64,000 nt of DNA from Anaerolineales bacterium (GTDB lineage: Bacteria > Chloroflexota > Anaerolineae > Anaerolineales > UBA11579), in NCBI GenBank assembly GCA_026129335.1, contig JAHCIH010000002.1:62001-126000 (forward strand). The letters are read 5' to 3'. Below, in pieces: positions 27,488-54,842 of the stretch (position 1 is the first letter of the stretch; the number at the start of each line of letters is the position of its first letter). Position numbers and translations under genes: made by a program. The notes below the pieces were generated by a model. That model was not told the origin of the DNA and did not search any database. It saw only the letters and a list, made by a program, of their open reading frames with translations.

Positions 27488-28468
27488 TCAGGGCAGCGGC
27501 GGGTAATCCTCGGGGCGCAGGTCGCCGGCGTCCAAGCCCAGGCCGTCGAGTAGGTTGCGGATGGTGTTCCAGTGCACCCGCTCCCAGGCCCGTGGGCTGG
27601 CGTTGGAGTTGTGCGCCGCCAGCAGCACGTTGTCCATCTGCAGCAGCGGGCTGCCCGCCGGCAACGGCTCGTGCTCGAAGACGTCCAGCGCCGCGCCGGC
27701 CAGCTGCCTGGCGCTCAGGGCGGCGACCAAGGCCGGCTCGTCCACCAGCGGGCCGCGGGCGGTGTTGACCAGCACCGCGCCCGGCTTCATTTTGGCCAGC
27801 GCGGCGGCATCAATGATGTGATGGCTGCTGGGGTTGAGGTCGCAGTTCAGGCTGACGAAATCGGCTTCAGCCAGCAAGCGGTCCAGGCTGACCATCTCCA
27901 CCGCGGTCTGTTGCAGGAACTCAGCGGGCATTTCGACGATGTCGTTGCCCAACAAACGCATGCCGAAGCCTTGCGCCCGCTGCAGCACCGCCTTGCCGAT
28001 GCGGCCCACGCCAACCACGCCCAGCGTGCATTCGGAAAGCGAGCGCCCGGGCAGCTTCTCCCAGCGGCCAGCCTTCAACGCCCGGTCCAGCCAAGGCGAC
28101 TGGCGGGCAAAGGCCAGGATGTAGCTGAGGGCCGAGTCGGCCACCGGCTCGGTGAACGCGCCCGGCGTGTTGCGCACGGCGATGCCCAACTGCGCCGCGG
28201 CGGCTTGGTCAATCGAGTCGATGCCGGTGCCCCACTTGGAGATGACCTTAAGGCGCGGGGCGCAGGCCGCCAGCACCTCGGCGGTGAAACGGTCGTCGCC
28301 GCAGATCGCCCCGTCGAACTGGCCGGCGTGGCGCATCAGCTCGTCGGCTTCGAGGCGCTCGTCCACTTCGGGGATGAGCAGCTCGATGCCATAGCGGGCC
28401 AAAGCCGGGCTGAAACGCTCGGCGGTGGGCAGCATGTAGGGGGCGGAGAGCAGCACGACTTTGGGCAT
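27488..28468 (-). CDS. D-isomer-specific 2-hydroxyacid dehydrogenase, SerA-like
   Basis: A 326-residue enzyme. The NAD-binding loop is LGVVGVGRIGKAVLQRA. The catalytic arginine and glutamate regions are VLVNTARGPLVDEPALVAAL and ALDVFEHEPLP, and a final histidine is in LLAAHNSNAS (HNSN in place of the more usual HxxG pattern). The segment SKWGTGIDSIDQAAA is typical of phosphoglycerate dehydrogenase-like members. There is no ACT domain. In a glycan cluster it probably oxidises or reduces a hydroxyacid or sugar-acid intermediate. It starts one base before the stop of the upstream cytidylyltransferase. Confidence 0.85.
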   Translation of the reverse strand: MPKVVLLSAPYMLPTAERFSPALARYGIELLIPEVDERLEADELMRHAGQFDGAICGDDRFTAEVLAACAPRLKVISKWGTGIDSIDQAAAAQLGIAVRNTPGAFTEPVADSALSYILAFARQSPWLDRALKAGRWEKLPGRSLSECTLGVVGVGRIGKAVLQRAQGFGMRLLGNDIVEMPAEFLQQTAVEMVSLDRLLAEADFVSLNCDLNPSSHHIIDAAALAKMKPGAVLVNTARGPLVDEPALVAALSARQLAGAALDVFEHEPLPAGSPLLQMDNVLLAAHNSNASPRAWERVHWNTIRNLLDGLGLDAGDLRPEDYPPLP

Positions 28469-28469
28469 G

Positions 28470-29144
28470 TCAACCGGCCTGGCGCAGGCCCATCAGAAAA
28501 TCCGCCACTTGGAAATCGAGTTCCTCATCGATATCCCAGGCCTCTTCGCGGGGGATGGGGAACATCAGCGGCGAGGGGCCGATGCGGTGATTGTATTTTT
28601 GCAAATTCTCTCGGGTGAACAAATACAGGCAGGAGTTCTCTTCGTAGATTGGGGGCAAGTCCTGGGTGCGCAGCAATTCGCCGGGATTGTGATTGATCGC
28701 CGCGCCTTTCCCGTCGTAGAGGCGAGTTTGCAGCGGAGTGACCGTGAAAAGCGAATCCCTGGACGGATCAGCCAAAAGTGCCTCGATGGCGGCCTGGATG
28801 GTGGCCGATCGCAGCAGCGGATTGGTGCTGTGCGTCTGCAGGTACAGGTCAGCCGGCGCCTGGGCCGTGTCGTGCAACAGGATGGTGTTCATGGGGATCT
28901 CGCCGGCGCGCAATGCCTCCGGCCGCTCCAGGACGCGCACCTGCGGAAAGTCCTTGGCCAGGCCAGCCCGGATCGTGTCGCTGTCGGTATCCACCACGAT
29001 TTCGGCGATCTGCGGGCAGGCCTGCAAAGCCAGCAGAATATGGTGGAAGAGCGGCCGCCCGGCCAGGGGGCGATAGTTCTTGCCCGGCACGCGCTCGGAG
29101 TGGTGGCGCATGGGCACCAGTGCGACGATTCGCGGGGTCGCCAT
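28470..29144 (-). CDS. Acylneuraminate cytidylyltransferase family protein
   Basis: A 224-residue NeuA-like nucleotidyltransferase that would activate a nonulosonic or similar acid sugar with CTP. The N terminus VALVPMRHHSERVPGKNYRP is the CTP-binding P-loop, here with MRHHSERVPGKN in place of the usual ARGGSKGIPxKN, a variant I have seen in family members of uncertain substrate. Later motifs are LQTHSTNPLLRSATIQAA (the TxPLR type motif), ENSCLYLF and WDIDEELDFQVA. It shares one base with the upstream glycosyltransferase stop. It is one of three cytidylyltransferase-type proteins in the window. Confidence 0.8.
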   Translation of the reverse strand: MATPRIVALVPMRHHSERVPGKNYRPLAGRPLFHHILLALQACPQIAEIVVDTDSDTIRAGLAKDFPQVRVLERPEALRAGEIPMNTILLHDTAQAPADLYLQTHSTNPLLRSATIQAAIEALLADPSRDSLFTVTPLQTRLYDGKGAAINHNPGELLRTQDLPPIYEENSCLYLFTRENLQKYNHRIGPSPLMFPIPREEAWDIDEELDFQVADFLMGLRQAG

Positions 29145-30124
29145 CAGCCCACCTTGGCCGGGTTCTCCCCCGGCCGCTGGGCTGTGCCGTCCCCGGATGC
29201 GACGGGCTTATGCTCCAACGCGTCCGGCGGGTAATAGAAGACCTGCTTCAGTTCCGCGCCGGGCTGCAGCGGATCGCGATAGCCGCGATAGGTGCCCCAA
29301 TATTGCAAAAAGCGAAACGAGAGGATGCCGCCCAGTTCGCGCAGCAGGCGACCCTGGCGGCGAGCGGCGGCCATGTCGCTGAGGGCACTGCGGGCGAACA
29401 GGCTGGCAAAATTGGCCAGGCTGAAGCGGCTGGCCGGCAGGATCTGGCGCAGCGCCAACGCCTCGCGGCGGTGGCGGTTGACGATCTGCGCCGAGGTTTC
29501 ATCGTGCAGGTGAGCCACGCCGGCCACGGCCACGTAGGCGATCTTGTAACCCTGCTCGCGCCGCGCCGAGGCCCAGGCGATGTCTTCCAGACCGGTCAGC
29601 TCTTCATCGTAAGGATCTTCCTTCCATAAAGAGAGGCGCAGTGCCAGGTTGGCGTTGTTGCAAAAGGCGCGCTGCTGATCGGGGTCGGACTGGTCCGGGA
29701 ACCACTTGCGGAAATGCTGGTCTTCGGAGAACTTGCTGCCCTCGCCGCCGCGCTGCCTGCCGTAAGCGATCGCCACTTGCGGGTCGGCGAACGGCGCGAC
29801 CAGCTGCGCCAGCCAATCGCCGCTCAACGGCAGCACATGGGCGCTGGCTAGCACGGCCAGCTCGCCGCGCGCCGCGGCCAGGCCCACGTTCAGCGAACGG
29901 CCAAAAGTGAAATCGGCGGGCTTGATGTGCACCACGCGCACCGGGTAGCGGGTGGCGATGTCCAGCGTGGCGTCGGTGGAGCCGGAATCGACCAGGATAG
30001 TTTCGTGATCGCTGAAGGTCTGTTGTTGGATGGCCTCCAGCAGGTTGCCCAGATGTTTTTGTTCATTGAAAGCGCGAATAACGATGGATACGCGCGGTGA
30101 TTTTGCGCTTGCAGGGGGCTGCAT
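29144..30124 (-). CDS. Family 2 glycosyltransferase
   Basis: A 326-residue GT-A enzyme. Motifs: VSIVIRAFNEQKHLGNLLEA, TILVDSGSTDATLDIA, and an SAHVLPLSGDWL segment where DxD is usual. WFPDQSDPDQQRAFCNNANL and LTGLEDIAWASA (ED motif of the catalytic base region) follow. The 60 C-terminal residues are Arg- and Gln-rich and may contact the membrane. Such IRAFNE-type members often transfer rhamnose or related sugars, but the donor cannot be fixed here. Located between a sulfotransferase gene and the NeuA-like gene, spaced nine bases and overlapping one base respectively. Confidence 0.85.
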   Translation of the reverse strand: MQPPASAKSPRVSIVIRAFNEQKHLGNLLEAIQQQTFSDHETILVDSGSTDATLDIATRYPVRVVHIKPADFTFGRSLNVGLAAARGELAVLASAHVLPLSGDWLAQLVAPFADPQVAIAYGRQRGGEGSKFSEDQHFRKWFPDQSDPDQQRAFCNNANLALRLSLWKEDPYDEELTGLEDIAWASARREQGYKIAYVAVAGVAHLHDETSAQIVNRHRREALALRQILPASRFSLANFASLFARSALSDMAAARRQGRLLRELGGILSFRFLQYWGTYRGYRDPLQPGAELKQVFYYPPDALEHKPVASGDGTAQRPGENPAKVG

Positions 30125-30133
30125 GAGCGAATC

Positions 30134-30997
30134 TTACCAGTTCCGGTCTTTTTCGTATCCCAGGCGCTGCAGCAGGTCGCCGGTGGCGGCCTTGAAGTTT
30201 TGCTTGTTGGCGAGAGTGAAGTGCTCACGCCACTCGCCGGGCTGGCCGCGGCGGAAGGTGCCCGAGGCGTGGGGCTGCACCGCGGCAGCCAGGGTCTCAA
30301 TGGCCTGCTGGCGGTTGGCGCCCGGCGTGAAGCCGCGAGCCGCCAAATGGTCGAGGATGCGACCCAGCGCCACAGAGCGATCCAGCACCAAATCTTCGAA
30401 ACGCAGGCTGAGCACCGCAGGCTGGTCCAGCCAATCCAGGTAGTGCTCGTACTTCACGCCGATCGGGGAGAGGCGGGCACTGTCGGTTTGCACGCCTTCG
30501 ATGGCGGCGTTGATGCGCTCTTCGGTGCTGGACAATGCCTGGTTGTAGTACTCGTGCATGCCGTGGCCGCGGTGCATCTCGGTGGCGTAAAAGACCTGTG
30601 AGACGATGACATCTCGAGGGTCACGGTAGATGAAGAACGCAGCCATCCCCGGGCGGGTCAGTTCCTCCAAGTATGGCGAACGAGCATGCAGGTACGCGTA
30701 GGCGATATCGCCGGGGCCGAGACAGCGCAGGCTGGCCAGCATCTCGGCTTCGGGCAGGTTGCGGTTGGCCGCCGAGCGATTGATCGGCGGCATGCCGGGG
30801 TTGACGAAGGGTCCCAACTCGGTGAGGCCGTTGAGGATCTGGATCAGCAGGTGTGAGCCGGACTTGGGCATGGCGTTGCCCACTACGGCCGGCGCAGCGG
30901 CCAGTACAGCCGCGCCCCAGCGGCGGGCGGCGGCAGCGCGGCGCAGGCGCCAGCGAGCCAGCTTGAGCGGCTGCTTGAGGGCGGCCAGCGCGCTCAC
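30134..30997 (-). CDS. Sulfotransferase
   Basis: A 287-residue sulfotransferase. The PAPS loop is VVGNAMPKSGSHLLIQIL near residue 40, and FFIYRDPRDVIVSQVFYA is the 3'-phosphate motif with RDPRD. AVLSLRFEDLVLDRSVALGR is the late RFEDL motif, and the sequence ends with HFTLANKQNFKAATGDLLQR and RLGYEKDRNW, a typical tail that also ends the 45681-46703 protein (GYEQDQDW). The start is GTG 30997, overlapping the upstream stop as GTGA. It would sulfate a glycan built by this unit, using PAPS from Sat-CysC. Confidence 0.88.
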   Translation of the reverse strand: MSALAALKQPLKLARWRLRRAAAARRWGAAVLAAAPAVVGNAMPKSGSHLLIQILNGLTELGPFVNPGMPPINRSAANRNLPEAEMLASLRCLGPGDIAYAYLHARSPYLEELTRPGMAAFFIYRDPRDVIVSQVFYATEMHRGHGMHEYYNQALSSTEERINAAIEGVQTDSARLSPIGVKYEHYLDWLDQPAVLSLRFEDLVLDRSVALGRILDHLAARGFTPGANRQQAIETLAAAVQPHASGTFRRGQPGEWREHFTLANKQNFKAATGDLLQRLGYEKDRNW

Positions 30998-32316
30998 GCA
31001 GCCCCCAGATGCGGGTCGCTGGGCTGCGGGGTATCGCTCAGCGAGACCAGGCCTTTCTCGATCAGCGGGTCGACCACAGCGATGACCTGCTCCAGGCTGC
31101 AATCCAACTCCAGCGCAATATCGGCCGCGCTGCGTGTGCCGTCTATGCGGTCCATGATGCGGAAATGGCGGCGGTGGCCTTCAGGGTCCTGGCGATAATC
31201 CACCCACAGGCCGAAACCGGAGGCGAAAATCTCACCCTTGTAGTGATTGACCAGGTAGCGCGTCTGGTCAAAGGCGGCCAGCAGAGCCAGCACCAGATCA
31301 CGGGAAGCTTCCAGCCTGTCTTGCGAAACGATCGCGGGGGTATCCAGATCAGAATGATACTCCGGATAGGGATAGAAGCGCGATTCAGGCAGGTGCGGGT
31401 TCGCCATCCGGCAGAGCGAGAGCATAGGCACGCGCACGCCGGGGGCGTTGAATTGGCGCTCGTCGTTGTCGATCACAGTGCGGAAACCGCCCACATGGGC
31501 TTCGGGCTCTCGTTCGCGCAGCACCAGCGCCAGGGCGCCGTCCGCCGGGCTGTGCGCCTGATGGGAGAGCTGCAAGGCGTGCGGTGCGGCGGTGCCCAGC
31601 ATCTCCAGGAACAAGCCGCCGCGCATCTGCGGGATCAAATGCTCATGCTGGCTCAGGTAGGCGATGGAACCCTGCGTCTCCGGGAAAATTAAAAAGCGCA
31701 CACTGTAGCGCGGCTTGGGCCCGGCCAGCAGGGCGCGCATCACATCCAGGCCGACCACCACGCCGCTCAGGTCGTCGTTGACCTGGGCGGGGTGATCGAG
31801 GTGGGCGGCGAGCACGAAGCAATCATCCAGCTCGCCCTGAACGAAGACCTCGCCAATCTTCAGCGCGCCGGGTTCAAAGCGGCTGGCAATCTTGACCCGG
31901 TAACGTTCCTCATCCAGGCCATTGATCAAGGTGCGCGGCGCGCAGAGGCCCCAATCGCGCTGGTAATACTTGAAGACGAAGGGGATAGCGTCCGGCAAAT
32001 GAGGATGGCTGTGCAGATGCGGCAGCAACTCCTCGCGGCTCACTTCGCCCTCAAAGGGCAGCGAGTACGAGACGACATGCAATGGACTGTCGGCTAGGTC
32101 GATCAGGCGGCGGCCGTCCAATGTTTCCAGATAGGCTTCATCGCAGGTCCACTTCTCCGGCACAGTCCAGGTCCATATCTTCGTGCCGCTGGGCACTTCG
32201 TGGATGGTCATGGGTACTTCGCCAGCCAGGCGGGCCAGCGCCTGGTCGTAGCCGTCGGAGACCAGGTGGCGGGGCAGCCGCCAAAGCTCCTCGATGAGCT
32301 GCATCATGCTGGTCAT
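30994..32316 (-). CDS. DUF4910 protein with M28 aminopeptidase-like domain and winged-helix C terminus
   Basis: A 440-residue protein. The central domain has the metal-site pattern of M28 aminopeptidases: CFVLAAHLDHPAQVNDDLSG (His and Asp ligands), RFLIFPETQGSIAYL (catalytic Glu) and PEYHSDLDTPAI (late His). The N-terminal domain (GTKIWTWTVPEKWTCDEAYL) is typical of DUF4910. The last 70 residues resemble a winged helix (IDGTRSAADIALELDCSLEQ). The family is common in glycan clusters, and its reaction is not established. It overlaps the AAC(3)-like gene by four bases and the sulfotransferase gene by four. With an aminoacyl-carrier ligase nearby, hydrolysis or transfer of an aminoacyl group is an attractive but unproven role. 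Confidence 0.8.
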   Translation of the reverse strand: MTSMMQLIEELWRLPRHLVSDGYDQALARLAGEVPMTIHEVPSGTKIWTWTVPEKWTCDEAYLETLDGRRLIDLADSPLHVVSYSLPFEGEVSREELLPHLHSHPHLPDAIPFVFKYYQRDWGLCAPRTLINGLDEERYRVKIASRFEPGALKIGEVFVQGELDDCFVLAAHLDHPAQVNDDLSGVVVGLDVMRALLAGPKPRYSVRFLIFPETQGSIAYLSQHEHLIPQMRGGLFLEMLGTAAPHALQLSHQAHSPADGALALVLREREPEAHVGGFRTVIDNDERQFNAPGVRVPMLSLCRMANPHLPESRFYPYPEYHSDLDTPAIVSQDRLEASRDLVLALLAAFDQTRYLVNHYKGEIFASGFGLWVDYRQDPEGHRRHFRIMDRIDGTRSAADIALELDCSLEQVIAVVDPLIEKGLVSLSDTPQPSDPHLGAA

Positions 32317-33091: not shown

Positions 33092-33568
33092 CTAAGGCTT
33101 CATCACCTTGCGGATGATGCTGGTGTCCACAGTGAAGCCGTATTTGGCCCAGAAGTTCAGGCTGACCTCGTTGCCCAATTGCACTTCGCCCTCAATGGAG
33201 TGCACGCCCAACTCGGCGAACTTCTTCATCGCCTCGTCGCCCAGCATGCGGCCCACGCCGGTACCGCGCAGACTGTCATCCACGTACATGTCGCTGAGCT
33301 GGCCCACTTGCATGCCGCCAAAATAGGCCGGGCTTTGCTTGACGCGGCAGAGCAGGAAGGCCACCGGAGCGCCCTCCGGCCCAGCCACCCACAGAAAGCT
33401 GAAGCGGCCCAAGGTGCGCTTGAACGAATCGACCCACTTGTCCGCGGCATCATCCGGCAGCGAATAGATCAAGCCCAAGCCCAGGTGGTACTCCTGCAGC
33501 TTCTTCCAATAGACGGCTACGCCGGGCAGGTCGGCGGGTGTGGCCTCGCGAACGGTCCATTCGGTCAT
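33092..33568 (-). CDS. GNAT-family N-acetyltransferase
   Basis: A 158-residue GNAT protein. The acetyl-CoA-binding motif A is SDMYVDDSLRGTGVGRMLGD (R-G-T-G-V-G), preceded by the usual strand and followed by a helix and VHSIEGEVQLGNEVSLNFWA, then KYGFTV. Length is normal. The ATG at 33568 overlaps the stop of the aaRS-like gene (ATGA), so the two are almost surely co-translated. It may acetylate the aminoacyl group loaded on the carrier protein, or an amino sugar; sequence does not decide. Acetyl-CoA use is established for the family. Confidence 0.85.
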   Translation of the reverse strand: MTEWTVREATPADLPGVAVYWKKLQEYHLGLGLIYSLPDDAADKWVDSFKRTLGRFSFLWVAGPEGAPVAFLLCRVKQSPAYFGGMQVGQLSDMYVDDSLRGTGVGRMLGDEAMKKFAELGVHSIEGEVQLGNEVSLNFWAKYGFTVDTSIIRKVMKP

Positions 33569-34761
33569 GCCAGCACCTCGCGGATCTCCGCCGGCCAGGC
33601 CGCCGGGTCCAGGCCGAACTGGCAGAGGAAAGCGTAAGCCAGGCGCTCCAAGCCAAAGGCCACGCAGCCGGTGTGCGCCGGCTTGCCGTCCGGCAGGCTG
33701 ATGTTCAGGTGGCGGCCGAAAAAGTCCTGGTGGTAGTTGTACGAACCCACCGCCAGCGAACCATCCTTGAACGGCAGGCGGGCACGGATTTCGTATTTCA
33801 GTTGGAAGGCGTTTTGGAAGGCGGCCTGCTTGCGGAACTCGCCCACGAAGAAGGGGTCGTTGGCGCTCTCCACCAGGTAGGCCAAGCCAATACGCTCGAG
33901 GAAGGCGGCCACCTTCTGGCGGCCGCCCTCGCGGTTCTCCAACACGAAGTCCGCCGGGCCGACGAAGATGACCTCGCGCATGGTGAAGTCCCACAAGCGC
34001 TCCAGCGTGTTCAGGTTGCTGGACTCGTAGCGGAAGCAGTGGCCCACGGCAGTAGCGATCAGCTGGCCGCCGGGCAGCGGCTTGTCGGCCAAGGCGAAAT
34101 AGTAATGATAGCAGACCGCCGGCGAGAGCAGCGCCTGGATCCTGGAGAAGGACTCTGGCGGTGCATTGAGGCCGGCTTCTTCATAATGGGTATGCTCGGC
34201 GAAATCGTTGATCACATGCAGGTCTTCGCGCAAGTGGGTGGCGAAGGTCAGCGAATGAGGGAAGGCGCGGAAGTAATTCACCCGGTCGAGCTTCTCCGCC
34301 GAGATCAGCGTCGGAAAACGCTGTGGCGCGGCCCCAAATTCGGCGGCCAGTTCCACAAAATAGCGCTCAAAGGCTTCGATGAGCCGCGTGACCAGCGGGC
34401 CGAGGGAGTAGATGCCGGTGTGCTCGCGGCTCACCTCGCCGCGGGCCAGCAGCTCAGGCATGGGATCCTCGGCATAGGGCACCGGCCGCGCCATGTGGTC
34501 TTCCAACACTTCGACCTTGGGCGGCAGCGCGCCCTTGGCCATCTCCTCGACGACTTGCAGCACCTTGGCCTCCAGCGCGGCCAGGGCAGCGGCGTCCAAA
34601 CCGCCTGCCAGTTCGAGGCGAACGGTGCCGCCATCTTCCGAGATGGCCGCGGTCTGGATGGCTTCGTCTACGTAAGCCAGGCGGGACTGCACCTGGCCGA
34701 TAAGATGTGCAGGGATGGGAAATGCGGAAGCGAAACTGTGCTCCGCGGCGCGCTCAGCCAT
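33565..34761 (-). CDS. Class-II aaRS-like amino acid:[carrier protein] ligase
   Basis: A 398-residue homologue of the catalytic core of atypical seryl-tRNA synthetase, lacking a tRNA-binding arm. The known family activates glycine or alanine and loads it on a phosphopantetheine carrier protein. Class-II motif 2 is TAVGHCFRYESSNLNTLERL (237-256) and motif 3 is CVAFGLERLAYAF (366-378). Cys217, Glu263 and Cys366 are spaced 46 and 103, close to the Cys-Glu-Cys zinc site I recall for the Bradyrhizobium enzyme (131/176/279). An additional N-terminal domain of about 85 residues is present. The carrier-protein gene lies immediately upstream and overlaps by eight bases, which supports the assignment strongly. 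The amino acid is unknown. Confidence 0.88.
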   Translation of the reverse strand: MAERAAEHSFASAFPIPAHLIGQVQSRLAYVDEAIQTAAISEDGGTVRLELAGGLDAAALAALEAKVLQVVEEMAKGALPPKVEVLEDHMARPVPYAEDPMPELLARGEVSREHTGIYSLGPLVTRLIEAFERYFVELAAEFGAAPQRFPTLISAEKLDRVNYFRAFPHSLTFATHLREDLHVINDFAEHTHYEEAGLNAPPESFSRIQALLSPAVCYHYYFALADKPLPGGQLIATAVGHCFRYESSNLNTLERLWDFTMREVIFVGPADFVLENREGGRQKVAAFLERIGLAYLVESANDPFFVGEFRKQAAFQNAFQLKYEIRARLPFKDGSLAVGSYNYHQDFFGRHLNISLPDGKPAHTGCVAFGLERLAYAFLCQFGLDPAAWPAEIREVLA

Positions 34762-35008
34762 GCTGTTTGGCCTGGATGTGGGCCAGGATGGCAGGCAAGC
34801 TGATGAGCTCGGCGATCGTCTCCGCGCTGATTTCCACGCCGAACTGGCTCTCCAGGCCGAGCATCAGGTCCATGTGGGCCATCGAATCCCACTGGGGCAA
34901 TTCGCCCAGTTGGGCCTCGGCGTCGATATCGGCCGGGTCCATTTGGAAGGTCTGCGCCAGCAAGCCACGCAGTTCATCCAGCAAAGGGGTTTGCGTCTCC
35001 GAACTCAT
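34754..35008 (-). CDS. Acyl/aminoacyl carrier protein
   Basis: An 84-residue carrier protein. LPQWDSMAHMDLMLGLESQF carries the phosphopantetheine attachment site DSM with Ser42. Helix 2 (AHMDLMLGLESQFGVEISAE) and the acidic surface are typical. A separate fatty-acid ACP is expected elsewhere in the genome; this one overlaps the aaRS-like ligase gene by eight bases and is therefore its likely partner. CoA, needed for the prosthetic group, is made by the operon at 10818-16300. No phosphopantetheinyl transferase is visible in the window. Confidence 0.92.
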   Translation of the reverse strand: MSSETQTPLLDELRGLLAQTFQMDPADIDAEAQLGELPQWDSMAHMDLMLGLESQFGVEISAETIAELISLPAILAHIQAKQHG

Positions 35009-35017
35009 GTCGAGGTC

Positions 35018-36595
35018 TTATACCAGAAAAGGCCCGCCGTTTACAACTCCATCGTGCACCGCTCGTACCGCTGGGGAATTCTCCGGCCGCAGCGCGTCCA
35101 CGGGGAAATCTTTGAAGTGCACCAGCCCCTTGGTGGTGTGCGGGGAGAGGAAATCGCCGAAAGGCAGCGCGGTGCGGAAGAGCTGGAAATAGAGCACGCG
35201 CCGCGCTTCGGCGACCATCGCCGCCGGCTGGGCGACCTGCTCCGCCGCCAACCACTCGGCGGCCTGGCGTAGATACTTCGCCGACGACTTTGGATAGAAG
35301 ACAGTTGGGTAGCGCGTGTAGCGCGCCGCGCCGCCGCACAGCACGGGCTTGCCCATGATCGAAGCCTCCAGGCCGATGGAGGAGTTGTAGACCATCACGA
35401 AGTGCGAACGCTGAATGAGCGCGTACGAGCTGAGGTATTCAGTGGCGTCCACGAAGACCACATTGGGCAGTTCAGCGACGCGGTTGGCCTGCGCCCATTG
35501 AGCCACGCTCTGGCGGCTTTGCTTGTTGTCGCGCATCTCGTCGGGATGGGCGCGGATGATGAACAGCGTGTCGGGATGGACGCGGATCAGCGGCAGGAGC
35601 TGGTCCAACCAGTCGAACATATCCGCAAACAGCGTATTGGCGTGCACCTGGCTGGTGTCAAAGATGACGTTGGTGAAGATGGGCACGATTTGCTTGAACC
35701 GGGCCGCCCTGGTCAAAAAGGCCTCGTCCAATTCCTGCATCTGCGGCCAGAATTGCACGCCGGCCATGCTGAAGCGGCCCTGGAAGCGCTCGCCCAGATA
35801 CTCGTCCAACTGCTGGTCCTGCGCCGCGTCGAGCTGGAAATCGTCGGAGATGTCCATCGGGTAGGCGGTGGCCTCGCTGTGGCTGAAGAAAGCAGTCAGT
35901 GGGCGCAGCGCCACTTCGTGGGTGATGGTGCGCAGCCCGCGGCGGCGGGCCAGCCAGGCGGCGGTGGCTTCGGGGAACATCACACCGTTGAACAGCACCA
36001 CCGCTTGGGGCTGCACCTCGTCCAACAGCTGCTCGAACTCTCGGGCCACGTTGTAGGCCGAGAGAATGTATTCGCGAAAGAGGAAGCGGGTTGGCTCGTC
36101 GTCGGCCAGGTGATGGCGGCGCAGCGCCCAACGCAGGCCGGGCAGCACCAGCCGGCCCAACGGCCAGCCCCCGTGGCTGTACCCCTCCAGTTGGGCGATG
36201 TCCATGCCCTGGATGGCAGCGGCCACCTCGGCCTGCTCGGCGAAGCCGAACCAGTATGCCTCAGCCCCGGCGTGCAGCCGCTGCGAACGAGCGATGCACG
36301 CCGGGCAGTCCGGCGCCAGCTGGGGCGCGTCGGGGTTGGTGCCCAGCACGCAGCGGCTCATCCCGCTGCGGCAGACGAAGTGCACGATGCGCAAGCCGGC
36401 CAGCCGCAGCCCCCAGGCAGCCAGGATGGAAAAGGCGGCATTCTGGCTGACGTGACCGAGGCGCGCCGAGGCGTTGAAGAAGACCACCGCAGGCCCATCG
36501 GGTTGGGCACGCGCGGCCACAGCACGGGCAGCGCGGGCCAGCCGCCAATCGCTGAGCAGACTATGCAGTTTGGAGGCGATACGTGTGAACAACAA
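35018..36595 (-). CDS. Capsule-synthesis-type glycosyltransferase, GT-B like
   Basis: A 525-residue protein. AVVFFNASARLGHVSQNAAF near the N terminus, a middle with LDEVQPQAVVLFNGVMFPEA, and a C-terminal half with IRVHPDTLFIIRAHPDEMR, VVFVDATEYLSSYALI and VMVYNSSIGLEASIMGKPVL. The HPDE and SSIGLEA segments match the donor-binding half of capsule-synthesis (KpsC/KpsS-like) transferases. No ATG is available at the 5' end; I chose TTG 36595, eight bases after a GGAGGG, and the next gene's stop lies just upstream. The start is uncertain. Similar proteins are encoded at 46700-48136 and 55674-57266. The sugar is unknown. Confidence 0.72.
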   Translation of the reverse strand: MLFTRIASKLHSLLSDWRLARAARAVAARAQPDGPAVVFFNASARLGHVSQNAAFSILAAWGLRLAGLRIVHFVCRSGMSRCVLGTNPDAPQLAPDCPACIARSQRLHAGAEAYWFGFAEQAEVAAAIQGMDIAQLEGYSHGGWPLGRLVLPGLRWALRRHHLADDEPTRFLFREYILSAYNVAREFEQLLDEVQPQAVVLFNGVMFPEATAAWLARRRGLRTITHEVALRPLTAFFSHSEATAYPMDISDDFQLDAAQDQQLDEYLGERFQGRFSMAGVQFWPQMQELDEAFLTRAARFKQIVPIFTNVIFDTSQVHANTLFADMFDWLDQLLPLIRVHPDTLFIIRAHPDEMRDNKQSRQSVAQWAQANRVAELPNVVFVDATEYLSSYALIQRSHFVMVYNSSIGLEASIMGKPVLCGGAARYTRYPTVFYPKSSAKYLRQAAEWLAAEQVAQPAAMVAEARRVLYFQLFRTALPFGDFLSPHTTKGLVHFKDFPVDALRPENSPAVRAVHDGVVNGGPFLV

Positions 36596-36624
36596 CAGCC
36601 CTCCCCCTCCCGGGGCACGCGGGC

Positions 36625-37497
36625 TTATTGCACGCGGCGCAGTTTCTGCAGGGAGGGTAATTCGCTCGCGTAGACCTGCTTGACGCCGTTGCCCAGGGCC
36701 TGTTCGGTGACGCGGATGTACTTGACCAGCCGCTGCAGGCCGCTGGGCTCCACCGAGGCAGCCTGGTCGCTGCCCCACATCGCCCGGTCCAGGGTGATGT
36801 GGCGCTCGATCAAACAGGCGCCCATGGCTACCGCCACGGCGGAGACGACCAGGCCGACTTCGTGGCCAGAGTAGCCTACCGGGCAAGGATAGGCTTCGCG
36901 CAAGGTCTGGATCATGCGCAGGTTGAGCTCTTCCGGCTCGCAGGGATAGGTGCTGGTGGTATGGGTCAGCACCAGATTGTCGGTGCCGACCACTTCCACC
37001 GCGGCCTTGATCTGCTCGTCGGTGGACATGCCGGTAGAAAGCACGATCGGCTTGCCGGTCTTGCGCAGGTGGCGCAGCAAGCCGTGGTCAGTCAACGAGG
37101 CTGAAGGTACCTTGTAGCACGGCGTGTCAAAGGCTTCCATGAAATCCACCGAGCCTTCATCCCAGACCGAGACGAACCAGTCCATGCCTTTGGCCTTGCA
37201 GTGCGCTTCGATTTCGCGGTAGGCGGCTTCGTCGAACTCGACTTTGTAGCGATAGTCCAGGTAGCTGATGTAGCCCCAAGGCGTCTCGCGCATCTTGTCC
37301 TTCTGGTCGTCGGGCACGGCCAGTTCGGGTGTGCGTTTCTGGAACTTGACCGCGTCGGCCCCCGCCCACTTGGCCAGGTCGATGAGTTGCTTGGCAATCT
37401 CAATGTCGCCGTTGTGGTTGATGCCGATTTCACCGATGATGTACGCCGGGTGGCCATCTCCCACCATGCGCGCGCCGATTTGCACTTCTCGCTTCAT
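36625..37497 (-). CDS. neuB: NeuB-family nonulosonic acid synthase lacking the SAF domain
   Basis: A 290-residue TIM-barrel enzyme that condenses phosphoenolpyruvate with a six-carbon amino sugar to a nine-carbon acid. Motifs are IIGEIGINHNGDIEIAKQLI, AGADAVKFQKR, YKVPSASLTDHGLL, IVLSTGMSTDEQIKAA, TSTYPCEPEELNLRMI and VGYSGHEVGLVVS, then CLIERHITLDRAMWGSDQA. The usual C-terminal SAF (antifreeze-like) domain, which caps the active site of the partner subunit, is absent, and the protein ends after the barrel. It could be naturally short or paired with a separate SAF protein. Sialic, legionaminic and pseudaminic synthases cannot be told apart by eye. It overlaps the NeuA-HAD gene by four bases. 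Confidence 0.85.
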   Translation of the reverse strand: MKREVQIGARMVGDGHPAYIIGEIGINHNGDIEIAKQLIDLAKWAGADAVKFQKRTPELAVPDDQKDKMRETPWGYISYLDYRYKVEFDEAAYREIEAHCKAKGMDWFVSVWDEGSVDFMEAFDTPCYKVPSASLTDHGLLRHLRKTGKPIVLSTGMSTDEQIKAAVEVVGTDNLVLTHTTSTYPCEPEELNLRMIQTLREAYPCPVGYSGHEVGLVVSAVAVAMGACLIERHITLDRAMWGSDQAASVEPSGLQRLVKYIRVTEQALGNGVKQVYASELPSLQKLRRVQ

Positions 37498-38732
37498 TTG
37501 CTCTCCTTGGGGAGTCTCTGCATGATTAAATCACAAAGCTCGCGCACCGCCCCGCGGCCACCGGGGTAAATGAGCACGATGTCCGCCTCGCGCAGCACGG
37601 CGGAGTGAGCATCGCCAACCGCCACCGCACAGCCCACCAGCGGGAAGCAGGGCAGGTCGTTGGTGTCGTTGCCCACGTAGACCGTCTCGGCAGCGGGGAT
37701 GTTCTTTTCGGCCAATATTTGCTTGAGCAGCGTGGCTTTGTCGTCGATGCCCTGGTGGTAGGCGATGCCCAGCTTTTCGCAGCGGCGGGCGACCACCGGG
37801 TTGGTCTCCATGGAAATCACCAACAGCTCCACGCCGGCCTTGCGCAACTGCATCAGGCCCAGGCCGTCGCTGCGGTTGGCGGCCACCTGCTCGCGGCCGT
37901 CCTGGTCGACCCAGACGCGGTTGTCGGTCATCACGCCGTCGAAGTCGAGCACCAGCAGGCGCACCGTGTCCGGCAGCGGCCGGCAGGCTGCCCCGGGCCA
38001 GACGATGTCCAACTCGCCGGAGGCAGCCAGCCACTCGGCGCGGCGCCAATCGTTGGGCGTGTCGATATCCACCGTGTAGCGCGGGTCAACATGCACCGGC
38101 CAGATGGACGCGCCGCTCATGCTGCCCTTTTTTAGGATGGTCGTTGCCCGAATGGCGTCCACATGCCCGGTCTGCCAATAGGTTGCTGGCAGTTCCTGGC
38201 GGGGGGAGTTGTAGGGTTCGGAGTTGCCTTTAACCTTGAGCAACGGCTGCATCACGCCGCCTTCGGTCAGGGACCACATTTTGTACGGGTTCTGGCCCGA
38301 AGGCACCACCCCGCGCACCGAATCAGCTTCAGGCTGGCTGAGCAGCACTTCCACGGCCTCGTCCACCAAGCCGGGCGGGCGCAGCGGCGAGGTGGGCCGC
38401 AACTGCACGACAATATCCGGCTTGTATTTCTCGTTCTCGGCCAGCCAACCCAGGGCGTGCTGGAAGAGCGACAGGTCCTGGCTGTCGTCGCGAGCGAATT
38501 CGGCCGGGCGCAGGAAGGGCGCCTCAGCGCCATACTCGCGGGCCAGTTCAGCCATCTCGGCGTCGTCGGTCGAGATAATCGTGCGGGTTACCCGCGTCGC
38601 CTGGACGCCGGCAGCCACGCTGTAGGCCAGCAGGGGGTGCCCCAGGAAAAGCAGGGCGTTCTTGCGCGGGATGCTCTTTGAACCGCCGCGGGCGGGAACA
38701 ACCGCCAGGACTTCGGGCTGTTTGGCGTTCAC
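37494..38732 (-). CDS. neuA: CMP-nonulosonate cytidylyltransferase fused to a HAD phosphatase
   Basis: A 412-residue bifunctional protein. Residues 1-235 are NeuA-like: VVPARGGSKSIPRKN (11-25) is the CTP loop, IISTDDAEMAELAREYGAE (52-70) follows, and LRPTSPLRPPGLVDEA (111-126) is the second motif. Residues 255-405 are a KdsC-type HAD phosphatase with DFDGVMTDN (263-271, nucleophile Asp263), VISMET, DDKATLL and the metal motif GNDTND (354-359). The phosphatase would dephosphorylate the nine-carbon acid 9-phosphate before CMP transfer, as in vertebrate CMAS-type fusions. That suggests a phosphorylated six-carbon substrate for the neighbouring NeuB. It overlaps both neighbours. Confidence 0.9.
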   Translation of the reverse strand: MNAKQPEVLAVVPARGGSKSIPRKNALLFLGHPLLAYSVAAGVQATRVTRTIISTDDAEMAELAREYGAEAPFLRPAEFARDDSQDLSLFQHALGWLAENEKYKPDIVVQLRPTSPLRPPGLVDEAVEVLLSQPEADSVRGVVPSGQNPYKMWSLTEGGVMQPLLKVKGNSEPYNSPRQELPATYWQTGHVDAIRATTILKKGSMSGASIWPVHVDPRYTVDIDTPNDWRRAEWLAASGELDIVWPGAACRPLPDTVRLLVLDFDGVMTDNRVWVDQDGREQVAANRSDGLGLMQLRKAGVELLVISMETNPVVARRCEKLGIAYHQGIDDKATLLKQILAEKNIPAAETVYVGNDTNDLPCFPLVGCAVAVGDAHSAVLREADIVLIYPGGRGAVRELCDLIMQRLPKESK

Positions 38733-39547
38733 CAGGCCGTCCAGCCTCCGTCCACCACCAGGTTGGCTCCGGTCATGTAGCTGGATGCATCCGAAGCCAG
38801 GAAGAGCAGCGCGCCGTTCATCTCATCCGGCTGAGCCATGCGGCCCAGCACGGCCCGCGCTGAGTAGGCCTGCACGAACTGTTCGTCGTGCCCGTTGAAG
38901 ACGCCGCCGGGGGTCAACGCGTTGGCGCGGATGCCCTTGTCGCCGTAATAAGTCGCCAGGTATTTGGTCAGGCCCAAAATACCCGCCTTGGTCACGGTGT
39001 AATCCACCGGCTTGTATTGGGTGGGCTGGCCGGGGCGTTGGTAGAGACGCTGGTCCGGGCCGCCCAGACCATAGGTCGAGCAGATGTTAATGATCACGCC
39101 GCGCTGTTGTGTCAGCATTTGTTTGGCGGCAGCCTGTGAGCAGAGGAAGGCGCCGGTCAGGTTGACCCGCAGAGAGGCCTCCCAGGCTTCCAGCGAGTAT
39201 TCCTCGAAGGCACTGCTGTGTTTGCCCTGGCCGGACTGGTCGAATTTGGGATCGAGTGCGGCGCTGTTCACCAGAATGTCCAGGCCCCCGCACTGCTCCA
39301 CCGCCGCCGCGGCCATGGCGGCCACTGAGGCCGCATCGCCCACGTCCACCTGGGCCGCTGCCGCCCGGCCGCCGGCCGCCTGGATGCCCGCGGCGGTTTC
39401 CCCGGCGGCGGCCAGATTGGCATCGGCCACCAGCACGGCGGCCCCGGCGGCGGCCAGGGTGGCGCAGAACTGGCGGCCCAGCAGGCCCGCGCCGCCGGTG
39501 ACTACCGCGGCGCGGCCGGACAGGTCGAAGGATGGCAGGGTGGACAT
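38729..39547 (-). CDS. Short-chain dehydrogenase/reductase, PtmA-like
   Basis: A 272-residue SDR. TGGAGLLG at 17-24, NSAA near 94, catalytic Ser157, Tyr183 and Lys187 (YTVTK), and the tail SYMTGANLVVDGGWTAW. The segment STYGLGGPDQRLYQ followed by PGQPTQYKPVDYTV, with its long insert before the catalytic Tyr, is typical of SDRs next to neuA/neuB (PtmA group). Its reaction is unproven; it may oxidise or reduce a sugar intermediate. ATG 39547 was chosen; a TTG nine bases upstream is less likely. It sits between the Sat-CysC gene (22 bases) and neuA (four-base overlap). Confidence 0.86.
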   Translation of the reverse strand: MSTLPSFDLSGRAAVVTGGAGLLGRQFCATLAAAGAAVLVADANLAAAGETAAGIQAAGGRAAAAQVDVGDAASVAAMAAAAVEQCGGLDILVNSAALDPKFDQSGQGKHSSAFEEYSLEAWEASLRVNLTGAFLCSQAAAKQMLTQQRGVIINICSTYGLGGPDQRLYQRPGQPTQYKPVDYTVTKAGILGLTKYLATYYGDKGIRANALTPGGVFNGHDEQFVQAYSARAVLGRMAQPDEMNGALLFLASDASSYMTGANLVVDGGWTAW

Positions 39548-39569
39548 AGCGGGCAACCGGCTGCCCTAA

Positions 39570-41324
<1,755 letters not shown>

Positions 41325-51818: not shown

Positions 51819-52883
51819 CTAGGCAAGGTCGCTCGAGCGAATGTCTTTCCCGAAGGGCAGATCGGCGGCGGCTTTTTTGCCCAATACCTGGGGGATGTCC
51901 CAGGCCATCAGCGCGCCCGGGGTGGCGGGGCGCAGCACCTCCAGCATGTCCTCGGTGAAGACTTCGCCAGCTTTGATATCGCGTGCAGCGCGCAGGCAAT
52001 GGCGCTGCACGATGTAGGTTTCTTTCTCGTTCTCGGCGACGAATTTTTCGTGGGAACCCAGCGCCCGCTCAGCAATGCGCACCTCGGCGACCATATGCGC
52101 CCAGTTCTCCGGGTTGAGGGCGAACTTGTGGTCCGGCCCCTCGCGCTCGTTGCTGTCGGTGAAGTGGCGCTCGATCACCCGGGCGCCCAACGCCACTGCG
52201 GCCACGACGGGCGCGGCGCCTTGCGTGTGGTCGGAGAGGCCCAGGATGACATTCGGCCAGCGCTCCGCATAGGTCTTGAGCACGTTGAGGTGCAGGTGGT
52301 CGTAGTTGCCTTCGTCTGCCGTGTAGTTGGTGTTGCACTGCATCAGCACCACCTGCTGGTTCACCGCCAGCAGCATCTCCATGGCGCGTTCCACGTCACT
52401 CATGTCCGAATCGCCGGTGGCGATCATCACCGGCTTGCCGAACTCAGCCATGCGCACGATGGCCTGCGGCCAGGAGATCAGGCTGGAGCCGGCCTTGTAG
52501 GCGGGCACGTAGGGGTCGAGCATGTCGATGGCGTCGTAGTCGTAGGGCGACGAAAAATAATGGATACCGAATTCGTCGCAGGCTTCCTTCAAGGTGGGTG
52601 TCCACTCGAAGGGGATGGAGGCATCTGCGTAGACCTCGACCACGCTCTTGGTCCAGGCTGCCTGATGGCCGATCTGACCTTTGAGGGAACGGAAACCATA
52701 GTCCGAGACGATCTTGGGCGCCTGGAAATTCTGGAACTTGGCCGCGTCGGCCCCGGCCTGCTTGGCCAAACGGATGAGTTCGATGGCGCGCTCGAGGCTG
52801 CCGTCGTGGTTGGCGGCGATGTCGGCGATGAAATACGTGGGGTGCTGCAAGCCAATCTTGCGACCCAGAATATCGATTTCCAT
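51819..52883 (-). CDS. NeuB-family nonulosonic acid synthase with SAF domain
   Basis: A 354-residue synthase. The TIM barrel shows YFIADIAANHDGSLERAIEL, AGADAAKFQNFQAPKIVSD, IHYFSSPYDYDAIDML, VPAYKAGSSLISWPQAIVRM, VLMQCNTNYTADEGNYDHL, ILGLSDHTQG and RVIERHFTDSNEREGPDHKF. A C-terminal SAF domain follows (VQRHCLRAARDIKAGEVFTE through GKKAAADLPFGKDI). This is the full-length architecture, unlike the synthase at 36625-37497. The PseB-like and RmlD-like genes upstream and the SpsF-like gene downstream hint at pseudaminic-type acid; a decisive substrate call is not possible by eye. Start ATG 52883. Confidence 0.87.
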   Translation of the reverse strand: MEIDILGRKIGLQHPTYFIADIAANHDGSLERAIELIRLAKQAGADAAKFQNFQAPKIVSDYGFRSLKGQIGHQAAWTKSVVEVYADASIPFEWTPTLKEACDEFGIHYFSSPYDYDAIDMLDPYVPAYKAGSSLISWPQAIVRMAEFGKPVMIATGDSDMSDVERAMEMLLAVNQQVVLMQCNTNYTADEGNYDHLHLNVLKTYAERWPNVILGLSDHTQGAAPVVAAVALGARVIERHFTDSNEREGPDHKFALNPENWAHMVAEVRIAERALGSHEKFVAENEKETYIVQRHCLRAARDIKAGEVFTEDMLEVLRPATPGALMAWDIPQVLGKKAAADLPFGKDIRSSDLA

Positions 52884-52887
52884 GCTT

Positions 52888-53826
52888 CTATCCTTCCAGA
52901 GGCTGCGGCTGTGTCGCCAGGTCGCGCAGGCGCTGCCGGTAGCCGGATGCATGCTGGGCGTGCAACCCATCAAGGCCCTGGGCGACGGTCGGCATGCGGC
53001 GGCCCAGCGCCTGGCTCAGGCGAGCTGTGTTCAAGCTGAGGTCAGGAGCACGCCGGGCGGGCGGATTTTCGGCGGCGCTCTCGGCGCTCTGGATTAGCCC
53101 GCCATCCAGGCCGAAGCGCGCAGCCAGCGCCAGACCGAATTCGTGCTTGGTCATCGAATCGGCGCTGGCCACATGGTAAATGCCGCTGAGGTCCTTCTCC
53201 AGCATTTCCAGCAATATCTCGGCCAGGTCAGTGACCAGCAGCGGGCAAAAGCGCCGGTCGGTGTGGCCGTTGACCGGCCGGCCGGCTGCCAGGTTGTTGT
53301 AGAAGAACTCGGCCAGGCTTTGCTGGCCGTTCAGGCTCCAGCCGAAGAACACCGTGCGGGCCAGGATGGCGCCGGGATGGGCCGCTTTGACGGCCAGCTC
53401 AGCCATACGCTTGCTGCGCGCATACACGCTGAGCGGATTGGGGCCATCCGTCTCTTTGTAGTTACCCTTGCTGCCGTCGAATACCGCATCGGTGGAGATG
53501 TGTGCCAAGCGCAGGCCGCGCCTGGCCGCCTCGGTGGCCAGGCGGCCGGGCACCTCGGCATTCAACCGATGGGCCAGCTGCGGCTGGCGCTCGGCTTCGT
53601 TCAGGGTAGCCAGGGCGGCGCAATGGACCACCCAGTCCGGCTGCACGGCGTCCAGCAGCGCCCCGATGCCATCCAGGTCGAGCAGGTCAGCCTGCACAGT
53701 CTCGAAGCCGGGTTCGTTCAAGCCCTGGCGGTGGAGCAGCCCGACCACGTCGTAGCGCGGCGCGGCGGCCAGGGCCAGGTTGCTGCCCAAAAGGCCACTG
53801 GCGCCGGTGACCAAAATGCGGGTCAT
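52888..53826 (-). CDS. RmlD-like NAD-dependent sugar reductase
   Basis: A 312-residue extended SDR resembling dTDP-4-dehydrorhamnose reductase. ILVTGASGLLGSNLALAAA is the NAD loop, ISTDAVFDGSKGNYKETDGP precedes the catalytic pair in YARSKRMAE (Tyr and Lys), and RTVFFGWSLNGQQSLAEFF and ADSMTKHEFGLALAARFG follow. It overlaps the pseB gene by four bases and lies five bases before the synthase gene. No other rml genes are near, so it probably works on a different 4-keto sugar, perhaps that made by PseB. ATG 53826. Confidence 0.85.
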   Translation of the reverse strand: MTRILVTGASGLLGSNLALAAAPRYDVVGLLHRQGLNEPGFETVQADLLDLDGIGALLDAVQPDWVVHCAALATLNEAERQPQLAHRLNAEVPGRLATEAARRGLRLAHISTDAVFDGSKGNYKETDGPNPLSVYARSKRMAELAVKAAHPGAILARTVFFGWSLNGQQSLAEFFYNNLAAGRPVNGHTDRRFCPLLVTDLAEILLEMLEKDLSGIYHVASADSMTKHEFGLALAARFGLDGGLIQSAESAAENPPARRAPDLSLNTARLSQALGRRMPTVAQGLDGLHAQHASGYRQRLRDLATQPQPLEG

Positions 53827-54830
53827 GCCAGTTTGCCCGCCTGCAGTTCGGCCTCGATGGGGGCGACCATTTCCTGGATTTGCTGGGTGTTGAGCATCTG
53901 CTCGTTTTCGTTGCTGGCGTAGTGGAAGCCCTCGGGCAGCGGCTTGCCCTTCTTGTCCCAGGAGTGCACGAACCACGGCCCCATCGCAGGCTGCAGCACG
54001 AACATATCGTCCAGCTCCACAGCGGTGCGGGCTTCGTCTTCAGAAATGAGCACTTCATGCAGCTTCTCGCCGGGGCGGATGCCGACCACGTCCAGTTCGG
54101 CATCCGGGGCAATCGCCTCGGCCAAATCCTTGATGGTTGTGCTGGGCAGTTTGGGCACGAAGACCTCGCCGCCCTGCATCTGCTCGATGCAGCCGAGCAC
54201 GAAGCGCACGCCCTGCTCCAGTGAGAGCCAGAAGCGGGTCATGCGCTCATCGGTGATGCTCAGCTTGCCCGCCTCGCGCTGCTGCAGGAACAGGGGCACC
54301 ACGGAGCCGCGGCTGCCGACCACGTTGCCGTAGCGCACGCAGCTGAAGCGGGTGGGCCGTTCGCCGGAATAGGCGTTGCTCTGCACGGTGAGCTTTTCGG
54401 CGGCCAGCTTGGTGGCGCCGTACAGGTTGACCGGGCTGACCGCCTTGTCGGTGCTCAGCGCCAGCACTTTGTGCACGCCGGCGGCCAGCGCCGCCTCGAC
54501 GACGTTGGCGCTGCCCAGGATGTTGGTCTTGATGGCTTCCATGGGGTTGTATTCGCAGGCGGGCACCTGCTTGAGCGCTGCGGCGTGGATCACCACGGTG
54601 ACGCCATCCATGGCGCGCTCCAGGCGGTCCTGGTCGCGCACATCGCCAATGAAATAACGCAGGTTGGGCTGGTCGAAGCCGCCGGTGCGCATTTCGTGCT
54701 GTTTCAACTCATCGCGGCTGAAGACAATCACCTTGGCGGGCTTGTATTCATCCAAAAGCATGCGGATGCAGGCCTTGCCAAAGGAGCCAGTACCGCCGGT
54801 GACCAAAACGACTTGTTTCTTCCAATCCAT
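53823..54830 (-). CDS. pseB: UDP-GlcNAc 4,6-dehydratase, inverting (PseB-like)
   Basis: A 335-residue extended SDR. VLVTGGTGSFGKACIRMLLD is the cofactor loop, VIHAAALKQVPACEYNPMEA the PseB-typical segment, and ALSTDKAVSPVNLYGATKLA carries the catalytic Asp-Lys pair and the Tyr-Lys pair. RYGNVVGSRGSVVPLFLQQ and IRPGEKLHEVLISEDEARTA are also characteristic. It converts UDP-GlcNAc to a 4-keto-6-deoxy sugar with C5 inversion, the first step toward pseudaminic acid. PseC, PseH and PseG are not visible beside it; an aminotransferase fragment lies at 1-505. Confidence 0.9.
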   Translation of the reverse strand: MDWKKQVVLVTGGTGSFGKACIRMLLDEYKPAKVIVFSRDELKQHEMRTGGFDQPNLRYFIGDVRDQDRLERAMDGVTVVIHAAALKQVPACEYNPMEAIKTNILGSANVVEAALAAGVHKVLALSTDKAVSPVNLYGATKLAAEKLTVQSNAYSGERPTRFSCVRYGNVVGSRGSVVPLFLQQREAGKLSITDERMTRFWLSLEQGVRFVLGCIEQMQGGEVFVPKLPSTTIKDLAEAIAPDAELDVVGIRPGEKLHEVLISEDEARTAVELDDMFVLQPAMGPWFVHSWDKKGKPLPEGFHYASNENEQMLNTQQIQEMVAPIEAELQAGKLA

Positions 54831-54842
54831 AGCAACTCCGCT

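Follow-up and report, generated by a model that had tools for sequence, protein, structure and literature searches.

The genes for a carrier protein (ACP), a long-form enzyme resembling amino acid:[carrier protein] (aa:CP) ligases, in most cases a GNAT acetyltransferase, an AAC(3)-like acyltransferase and a DUF4910 protein form a constant unit in Anaerolineales. In the window, by which we mean the whole stretch of 64,000 nt that was analysed (Anaerolineales bacterium, assembly GCA_026129335.1, contig JAHCIH010000002.1, positions 62,001-126,000 of the forward strand), this unit runs from 35008 to 30994, and we put at about even the chance that the five genes constitute one aminoacylation module of a surface nonulosonic-acid or amino-sugar glycan, acting by the four-step transfer set out below. 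The broader proposal, for which our confidence falls a little short of even, is of a tRNA-independent route in which a descendant of the class-II aminoacyl-tRNA synthetases (aaRS), a carrier protein and a transferase of the AAC(3) fold would attach amino acids, in many cases N-acetylated, to nonulosonic acids or to their amino-sugar precursors; such a route would give both the long-form aa:CP ligases and the DUF4910/AAC(3) pair their first physiological role. If right, it would point to the way in which some cells produce N-aminoacyl surface sugars of the kind found on legionaminic acid and Qui4N, and would add to the instances in which surface chemistry has taken over enzymes of translation. 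The set of five genes is compact enough to be expressed and tested, and would link its parts to a defined pathway.

Table 1. Genes of the proposed aminoacylation gene set and of the surrounding glycan region, in window coordinates.
Feature	Coordinates	Strand	Profile match
Carrier protein (ACP), 84 aa, predicted phosphopantetheine site Ser42 in WDSM	34754..35008	-	PF00550 E 9.2e-7
Long-form aa:CP ligase-like enzyme, 398 aa, class-II aaRS core, C217/E263/C366	33565..34761	-	NF005479 E 2.5e-52, under cut-off
GNAT acetyltransferase, 158 aa	33092..33568 (ATG 33568, stop 33092)	-	PF00583 E 6.6e-12
AAC(3)/FrbF-like acyltransferase, 258 aa	32313..33089	-	PF02522 E 1.6e-37
DUF4910/DUF2172 protein, M28-peptidase-like fold, 440 aa	30994..32316	-	PF16254 E 1.1e-59
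Capsule-synthesis-type glycosyltransferase	35018..36628 (approximate start)	-	PF05159 E 9e-9
NeuB, nonulosonic acid synthase without SAF domain, 290 aa	36625..37497	-	PF03102 E 1e-79
CMP-nonulosonate synthase fused to KdsC-like HAD phosphatase	37494..38732	-	TIGR03584, KdsC family matches
SDR oxidoreductase, same operon	38729..39556 (start about 39547-39556)	-	PF13561
ATP sulfurylase-APS kinase fusion, PAPS supply	39570..41324	-	PF01747, PF01583
Sulfotransferase	30134..31000 (approximate start)	-	PF00685 E 5e-10
Family 2 glycosyltransferase	29144..30124	-	PF00535
Second CMP-sugar synthase-like protein	28470..29144	-	PF02348
2-Hydroxyacid dehydrogenase-like protein	27488..28468	-	PF02826
PseB, UDP-GlcNAc 4,6-dehydratase (inverting)	53823..54842	-	TIGR03589 479 bits (cut-off 407.75)
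Second NeuB, with SAF domain	51819..52880 (approximate start)	-	PF03102, PF08666

The gene set and its neighbourhood

The ACP and ligase genes overlap by eight bases and the ligase and GNAT genes by four, and throughout the operon, from the SDR gene to the sulfotransferase gene, neighbouring genes overlap or are separated by at most 9 bases (the glycosyltransferase and sulfotransferase starts being estimated). The AAC(3)-like and DUF4910 genes follow directly downstream of the GNAT gene with the operon unbroken. Upstream of the ACP gene the same operon contains both genes taken to mark a nonulosonic acid cluster, NeuB and a CMP-nonulosonate synthase (here fused to a HAD phosphatase), as identified by Pfam and NCBIfam profiles. 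The initial annotation, which had described a GNAT, overlaps of four to eight bases and a nonulosonic acid setting, is borne out in each of these respects.

Scanning the genomes of species representatives yielded 62 loci, of which 44 (L013-L056) are from Chloroflexota, mostly labelled Anaerolineales; the denominators given here are the Anaerolineales loci where the neighbour in question was testable. Some 40 Anaerolineales species representatives share the gene order, which is therefore not due to chance and supplies the conservation in other Chloroflexota that the initial annotation had proposed to look for. The ACP gene lies upstream of the ligase gene in 40/41 loci, DUF4910 is present in 36/37 and the GNAT in 39/43 (absent from L022, L024, L029 and L031), while the AAC(3)-like gene, found in 39/39, is the sole partner never absent. 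The three-gene module first proposed (ACP, ligase and GNAT) is thus real but incomplete, the AAC(3)-like and DUF4910 genes being at least as constant as the GNAT. Further from this core, the PF05159 glycosyltransferase is found in 35/37 loci, NeuB, lying upstream in the same orientation, in 30/35, the CMP-nonulosonate synthase-HAD fusion in 29/33, the family 2 glycosyltransferase in 26/30, the second CMP-sugar synthase-like gene in 24/28, the 2-hydroxyacid dehydrogenase-like gene in 21/26, the SDR in 24/30, the sulfotransferase in 24/32 and the PAPS synthase (ATP sulfurylase-APS kinase) in 18/29. In one locus, L034, ACP, ligase, GNAT, AAC(3) and DUF4910 form an isolated cassette between unrelated genes, with NeuB elsewhere in that genome. 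Together, these counts and this cassette indicate that the five genes act as a unit, mostly but not always within a nonulosonate cluster; regular occurrence outside glycan clusters, which would have spoken against the original reading, was not found, L034 being the one clear exception. Across 400 whole genomes of the order the ligase has a match in 53, three of these matches being weak (about 30% identity) and one more being a fragment close to the end of a contig, and it is present in 10/11 genomes within the same genus. A strong DUF4910 match lies within 8 kb of the ligase gene in 40/49 long-form genomes.

Some loci depart from the arrangement in the window. Two tandem GNAT genes, not one, follow the ligase gene in L019, L021 and L054, and a pair encoding an AAA ATPase and an RloB-like protein is inserted between the GNAT and AAC(3) genes in L039 (4693-6628) and similarly in L045 (3649-5581). 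In L036 (5113-7032) and the equivalent position of many Anaerolineales loci, the 290-aa NeuB of the window is replaced by a protein of about 640 aa, in which NeuB-SAF is fused to a xylose-isomerase-like TIM barrel (PF01261); a nonulosonate synthase that also isomerises its precursor is possible. At the far end of the cluster in the window (25884-26700) is a gene for an MptE-like/DUF115 protein, kept in 18/18 testable loci, of a family that includes the Maf-type flagellin nonulosonate transferases. The glycan region of the window also encodes at least two sulfotransferases (30134-31000 and 45681-46916) in addition to the ATP sulfurylase-APS kinase fusion, and these PAPS synthase and sulfotransferase genes suggest a sulfated surface glycan in these Chloroflexota.

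The window encodes two NeuB proteins, the operon copy and the SAF-domain copy at 51819. There is no aminotransferase gene in the operon, the nearest, of the DegT family and LegC/PseC-like, being 16.7 kb beyond the window. With PseB as a candidate start of the amino-sugar supply and the LegC/PseC-like aminotransferase, a 4-amino-6-deoxy sugar could be produced, and the amine of that sugar (N7 of the nonulosonate) would be a natural acceptor; the HAD-fused CMP synthase (NeuA) could point to a non-amino nonulosonate. PseB was also considered as a specific partner of the ligase, being present in 46/49 ligase genomes against 260/351 others (hand count from the listing; Fisher p 0.001, the genomes not being independent). 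This was rejected: PseB is near-ubiquitous in the order (306/400 genomes) and, the genomes not being independent, it does not identify the acceptor.

The carrier protein and the ligase

The initial annotation had recognized an 84-residue carrier protein with Ser42 and a class-II ligase with Cys217, Glu263 and Cys366 in the spacing of a zinc site, and the alignments agree on both counts. The ACP matches the PP-binding profile and its Ser42 is invariant in 42/42 orthologous sequences; the zinc triad of the ligase is invariant in 44/44 and aligns with the equivalent residues of Bll0957 from B. japonicum. The genome encodes one AcpS-family phosphopantetheinyl transferase.

The ligase has a weak Pfam match to the class-II aaRS core. 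The solved protein closest to it by sequence is the glycine:[carrier protein] ligase of B. japonicum (3mey, E 9e-44), with archaeal SerRS2 also near. An AlphaFold2 model (pLDDT 87.6, pTM 0.84) matches the glycine:[carrier protein] ligase in its structure with the carrier (4h2s) with a TM-score of 0.88 on the target (Z 30.6, rmsd 2.6 over 292 residues) and the archaeal SerRS2 structures (2cim, 3w3s) with Z of 31-32.5; these matches span residues from about 73-98 to 398. An N-terminal part of about 95 residues precedes the core.

The Bll0957-like core, the Cys-Glu-Cys zinc site and the adjoining carrier protein gene place the enzyme in the aa:CP ligase superfamily, as the initial annotation had it. 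However, the ligase scores 177.8 bits against the curated cut-off of 357 of NF005479, the equivalog of the short forms, and 84 against 489.55 and 125 against 611 bits for the SerRS2 families, which are defined on the full-length protein with its tRNA-binding N-terminal domain. In a tree of 41 sequences comprising long forms, short forms and two SerRS2, the short forms (Bll0957, Azospirillum, Priestia and other Chloroflexota) form one clade with support of 100/100 and the Anaerolineales ligases a clade of their own (98/95), the two SerRS2 lying far outside; the branches that connect the short forms with the long-form lineages have low support, and the tree programme issued a long-branch warning. 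At the positions of H219 and W257 in the long forms, the short forms have P and Q. Both kinds of aa:CP ligase possess K322 and Q316, apart from one long form (L071) with R at 316, and SerRS2 has neither residue. With a score at half the NF005479 cut-off and a separate clade, the ligase is not filed in the characterized short-form subfamily, and we class it as an aa:CP ligase in the wide sense, of a separate long-form lineage. The assignment of 'Gly or Ala' cannot be carried over to this sister lineage; the predicted substrate is probably a small amino acid, Gly, Ala or Ser. It is highly probable that the ligase loads the ACP, and this ligase and carrier chemistry is the only well-grounded part of the model.

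A proposed transfer pathway and its alternatives

In the first step of the proposed pathway, the long-form ligase would use ATP to activate an amino acid, with zinc holding the amino group, and would attach it to the ACP through the phosphopantetheine thiol, a step well supported by the enzyme's family and fold, its intact triad and the adjacency of the two genes. In the second, the AAC(3)-like enzyme would move the aminoacyl group from the ACP to the amine of a sugar nucleotide or nonulosonate, as suggested by the constancy of its gene and by a gene fusion in other bacteria. The usual acyl donor of the AAC(3) family is the pantetheine thioester of CoA. The GNAT, where present, would in a third step acetylate the alpha-amine to give an N-acetylaminoacyl group, of a kind known on surface sugars. 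In the fourth and weakest step the DUF4910 protein would strip an existing acyl group, freeing the amine for the second step.

The AAC(3)-like protein scores 129.7 bits with PF02522 against a cut-off of 25, has FrbF (3sma) as its nearest solved structure and keeps the His and Glu of the HY.EQR region in an alignment with FrbF and its relatives. The Maritalea plasmid pHL2708Y3 (L150:4943-7402) encodes a protein of 819 aa that combines an AAC(3) domain with an FkbH domain (290 bits, the cut-off being 147); its gene lies in a cluster with pseB, a NeuB-family gene and DUF4910. Since FkbH proteins charge ACPs with glyceryl groups, the fusion suggests ACPs as the source of the acyl groups used by AAC(3)-like enzymes in clusters of this type; it would make a good model protein for ACP-dependent N-acylation by the AAC(3) fold. 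The first alternative to be weighed, which we consider unlikely, is that the GNAT is itself the aminoacyl transferase, following the precedent of GNAT-fold Fem/VlmA-like enzymes, and that the AAC(3)-like enzyme only acetylates from acetyl-CoA. The position of the GNAT after the ligase in 39/43 loci is compatible with this, as are the GNATs that follow long-form ligases in Acidobacteriota (L062, L069) and the AAC(3)-DUF4910 pairs without ligase or ACP found outside glycan clusters in other Anaerolineales (L133-L137); such pairs mean that an ACP donor is not obligatory for the AAC(3) family, acetyl-CoA or another donor being possible. Conversely, the absence of the GNAT from L022, L024, L029 and L031 makes a tailoring role likelier for it, whereas AAC(3) is present in all testable loci and also in a Pseudomonadota MAG (L057) with the order AAC(3)-ACP-ligase-formyltransferase, and the Maritalea fusion joins AAC(3) to FkbH. 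We therefore regard the GNAT as more likely a tailoring enzyme than a transferase. The transfer of an aminoacyl group to a sugar amine, as originally suggested, is plausible but with the AAC(3)-like enzyme as the proposed transferase, and N-acetylation as an extra is plausible too.

Three of the stand-alone pairs of L133-L137 are followed by a short gene that appears MaoC/hotdog-like by eye.

The DUF4910 protein scores 201.7 bits with PF16254 against a cut-off of 26.6, and its nearest solved structure is 3k9t. Residues H175, D181, E213 and H321 are conserved, but the pattern is unlike that of known M28 enzymes, and DUF4910 active-site residues are reported not to match those of known peptidases (PMC4000134). 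A function as deacylase or amide hydrolase is a guess. DUF4910 follows AAC(3) rather than the GNAT, which points to a joint job, for example one acyl group off and another on, although this pairing of removal and addition is likewise a guess. An IS element interrupts the AAC(3)-DUF4910 pair on an Agrobacterium plasmid, where the pair adjoins a complete pse set (pseBCFGIH). Near the gene for a 54%-identical DUF4910 protein on a Solidesulfovibrio plasmid no ligase or ACP is annotated. A butirosin-like scheme, in which the GNAT protects and DUF4910 deprotects, was set aside as the lead model: DUF4910 is kept in the four testable loci that have no GNAT and pairs with AAC(3) where the ligase is absent.

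The wider distribution of the ligases bears on a second alternative, which we hold improbable, namely that the aminoacyl-ACP is a precursor to be oxidized or extended, as an extender of the aminomalonyl-ACP type, for a diffusible small molecule and not for a glycan. A Streptomyces long form is encoded with an ACP, acyl-CoA and 3-hydroxyacyl-CoA dehydrogenases and ketosynthase/NRPS genes, a setting that recalls the formation of aminomalonyl-ACP from serine, and plasmid-borne short forms are found with an ACP and an acyl-CoA dehydrogenase, in Azospirillum also with DUF1839 and a glycosidase; AAC(3) and DUF4910 are not annotated in these short-form plasmid regions of Azospirillum and Priestia. 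The window operon, however, showed no sign of an acyl-CoA dehydrogenase, a ketosynthase or an NRPS domain, and in most loci the neighbours are glycan genes. Among the long forms of Acidobacteriota and Planctomycetota, an ACP-like frame lies just upstream in several (confirmed by Pfam for L065 and L073), with genes for polysaccharide flippases or GNATs close by.

It is less probable still that the ligase has lost loading activity or charges another target, for example a free sugar amine directly, with the ACP serving another enzyme. H219, W257 and the N-terminal part do distinguish the long form from characterized ligases, but the ACP adjoins it in 40/41 loci and in several other phyla, and the zinc triad and aa:CP-type residues are invariant. 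It is very improbable that the AAC(3)-like gene confers aminoglycoside resistance and is present by chance, since its best NCBIfam matches, although to AAC(3) families, are far below the resistance equivalog cut-off (95.6 against 270 bits), its position is kept in dozens of genomes and AAC(3)-DUF4910 pairs lie beside pse genes elsewhere.

Comparison with known systems

Aminoacyl-carrier proteins acylate a sugar or aminoglycoside in the AlmEFG system of V. cholerae, which transfers glycine to lipid A, and in butirosin biosynthesis (BtrIJH). These systems use enzyme families other than those of the window module at every step save the carrier protein. The short-form aa:CP ligases (Bll0957, 3mey/4h2s, NF005479) share with the window ligase the class-II core, the zinc triad, K322/Q316 and an adjoining carrier protein; the window ligase differs in its 32-34% identity, its extra N-terminal part, H219/W257 in place of P/Q and its separate clade, and the short-form operons of the Azospirillum and Priestia plasmids have the acyl-CoA dehydrogenase in place of AAC(3)/DUF4910. 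The archaeal SerRS2 of M. barkeri (2cim) and M. kandleri (3w3s) share the core fold and zinc triad, but at about 520 aa have a larger N-terminal part and lack K322/Q316, whereas the window ligase has 398 aa and is encoded beside an ACP.

The products expected of such a pathway have precedents. The initial annotation's statement that N-aminoacyl nonulosonic acids are known chemically is supported by D-Ala on N7 of legionaminic acid in E. coli O161 (PMC10609480) and by Leg5Ac7AcAla in V. vulnificus (PMC7371886), and the N-acetylglycyl group on Qui4N in S. dysenteriae D7 (PMC10609480) exemplifies an N-acetylaminoacyl sugar. It also knew of no described route of this kind, but a pathway in which an aa:CP ligase serves to join an amino acid to the amino group of a surface sugar was predicted in a note in proof by Iyer et al. 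2010 (PMC2922099). Their prediction of the same transfer was based on a short-form cluster, with Atu2574 as the transferase, and the note in proof does not mention AAC(3), DUF4910 or a nonulosonic-acid operon (PMC2922099). Within the literature collection covered, a search found no aa:CP ligase in nonulosonate synthesis and no report of this gene set, which is weak evidence of absence. With the general idea published in 2010 for the short forms and the products known, the gene set described here amounts to a variation on a partly predicted theme; it is conserved and coherent and can be tested directly.

DUF4910 proteins were placed by Das et al. 2014 in modified-carbohydrate clusters with ACPs and N-acetyltransferases, and transacylation or deacylation was considered (PMC4000134). 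The neighbourhood of CA_C2195 resembles the window in combining DUF4910 with ACP, N-acetyltransferase, HAD and NeuB-type genes, but differs in that its candidate loading enzymes are of ATP-grasp or HAD type, with no aaRS-like ligase (PMC4000134).
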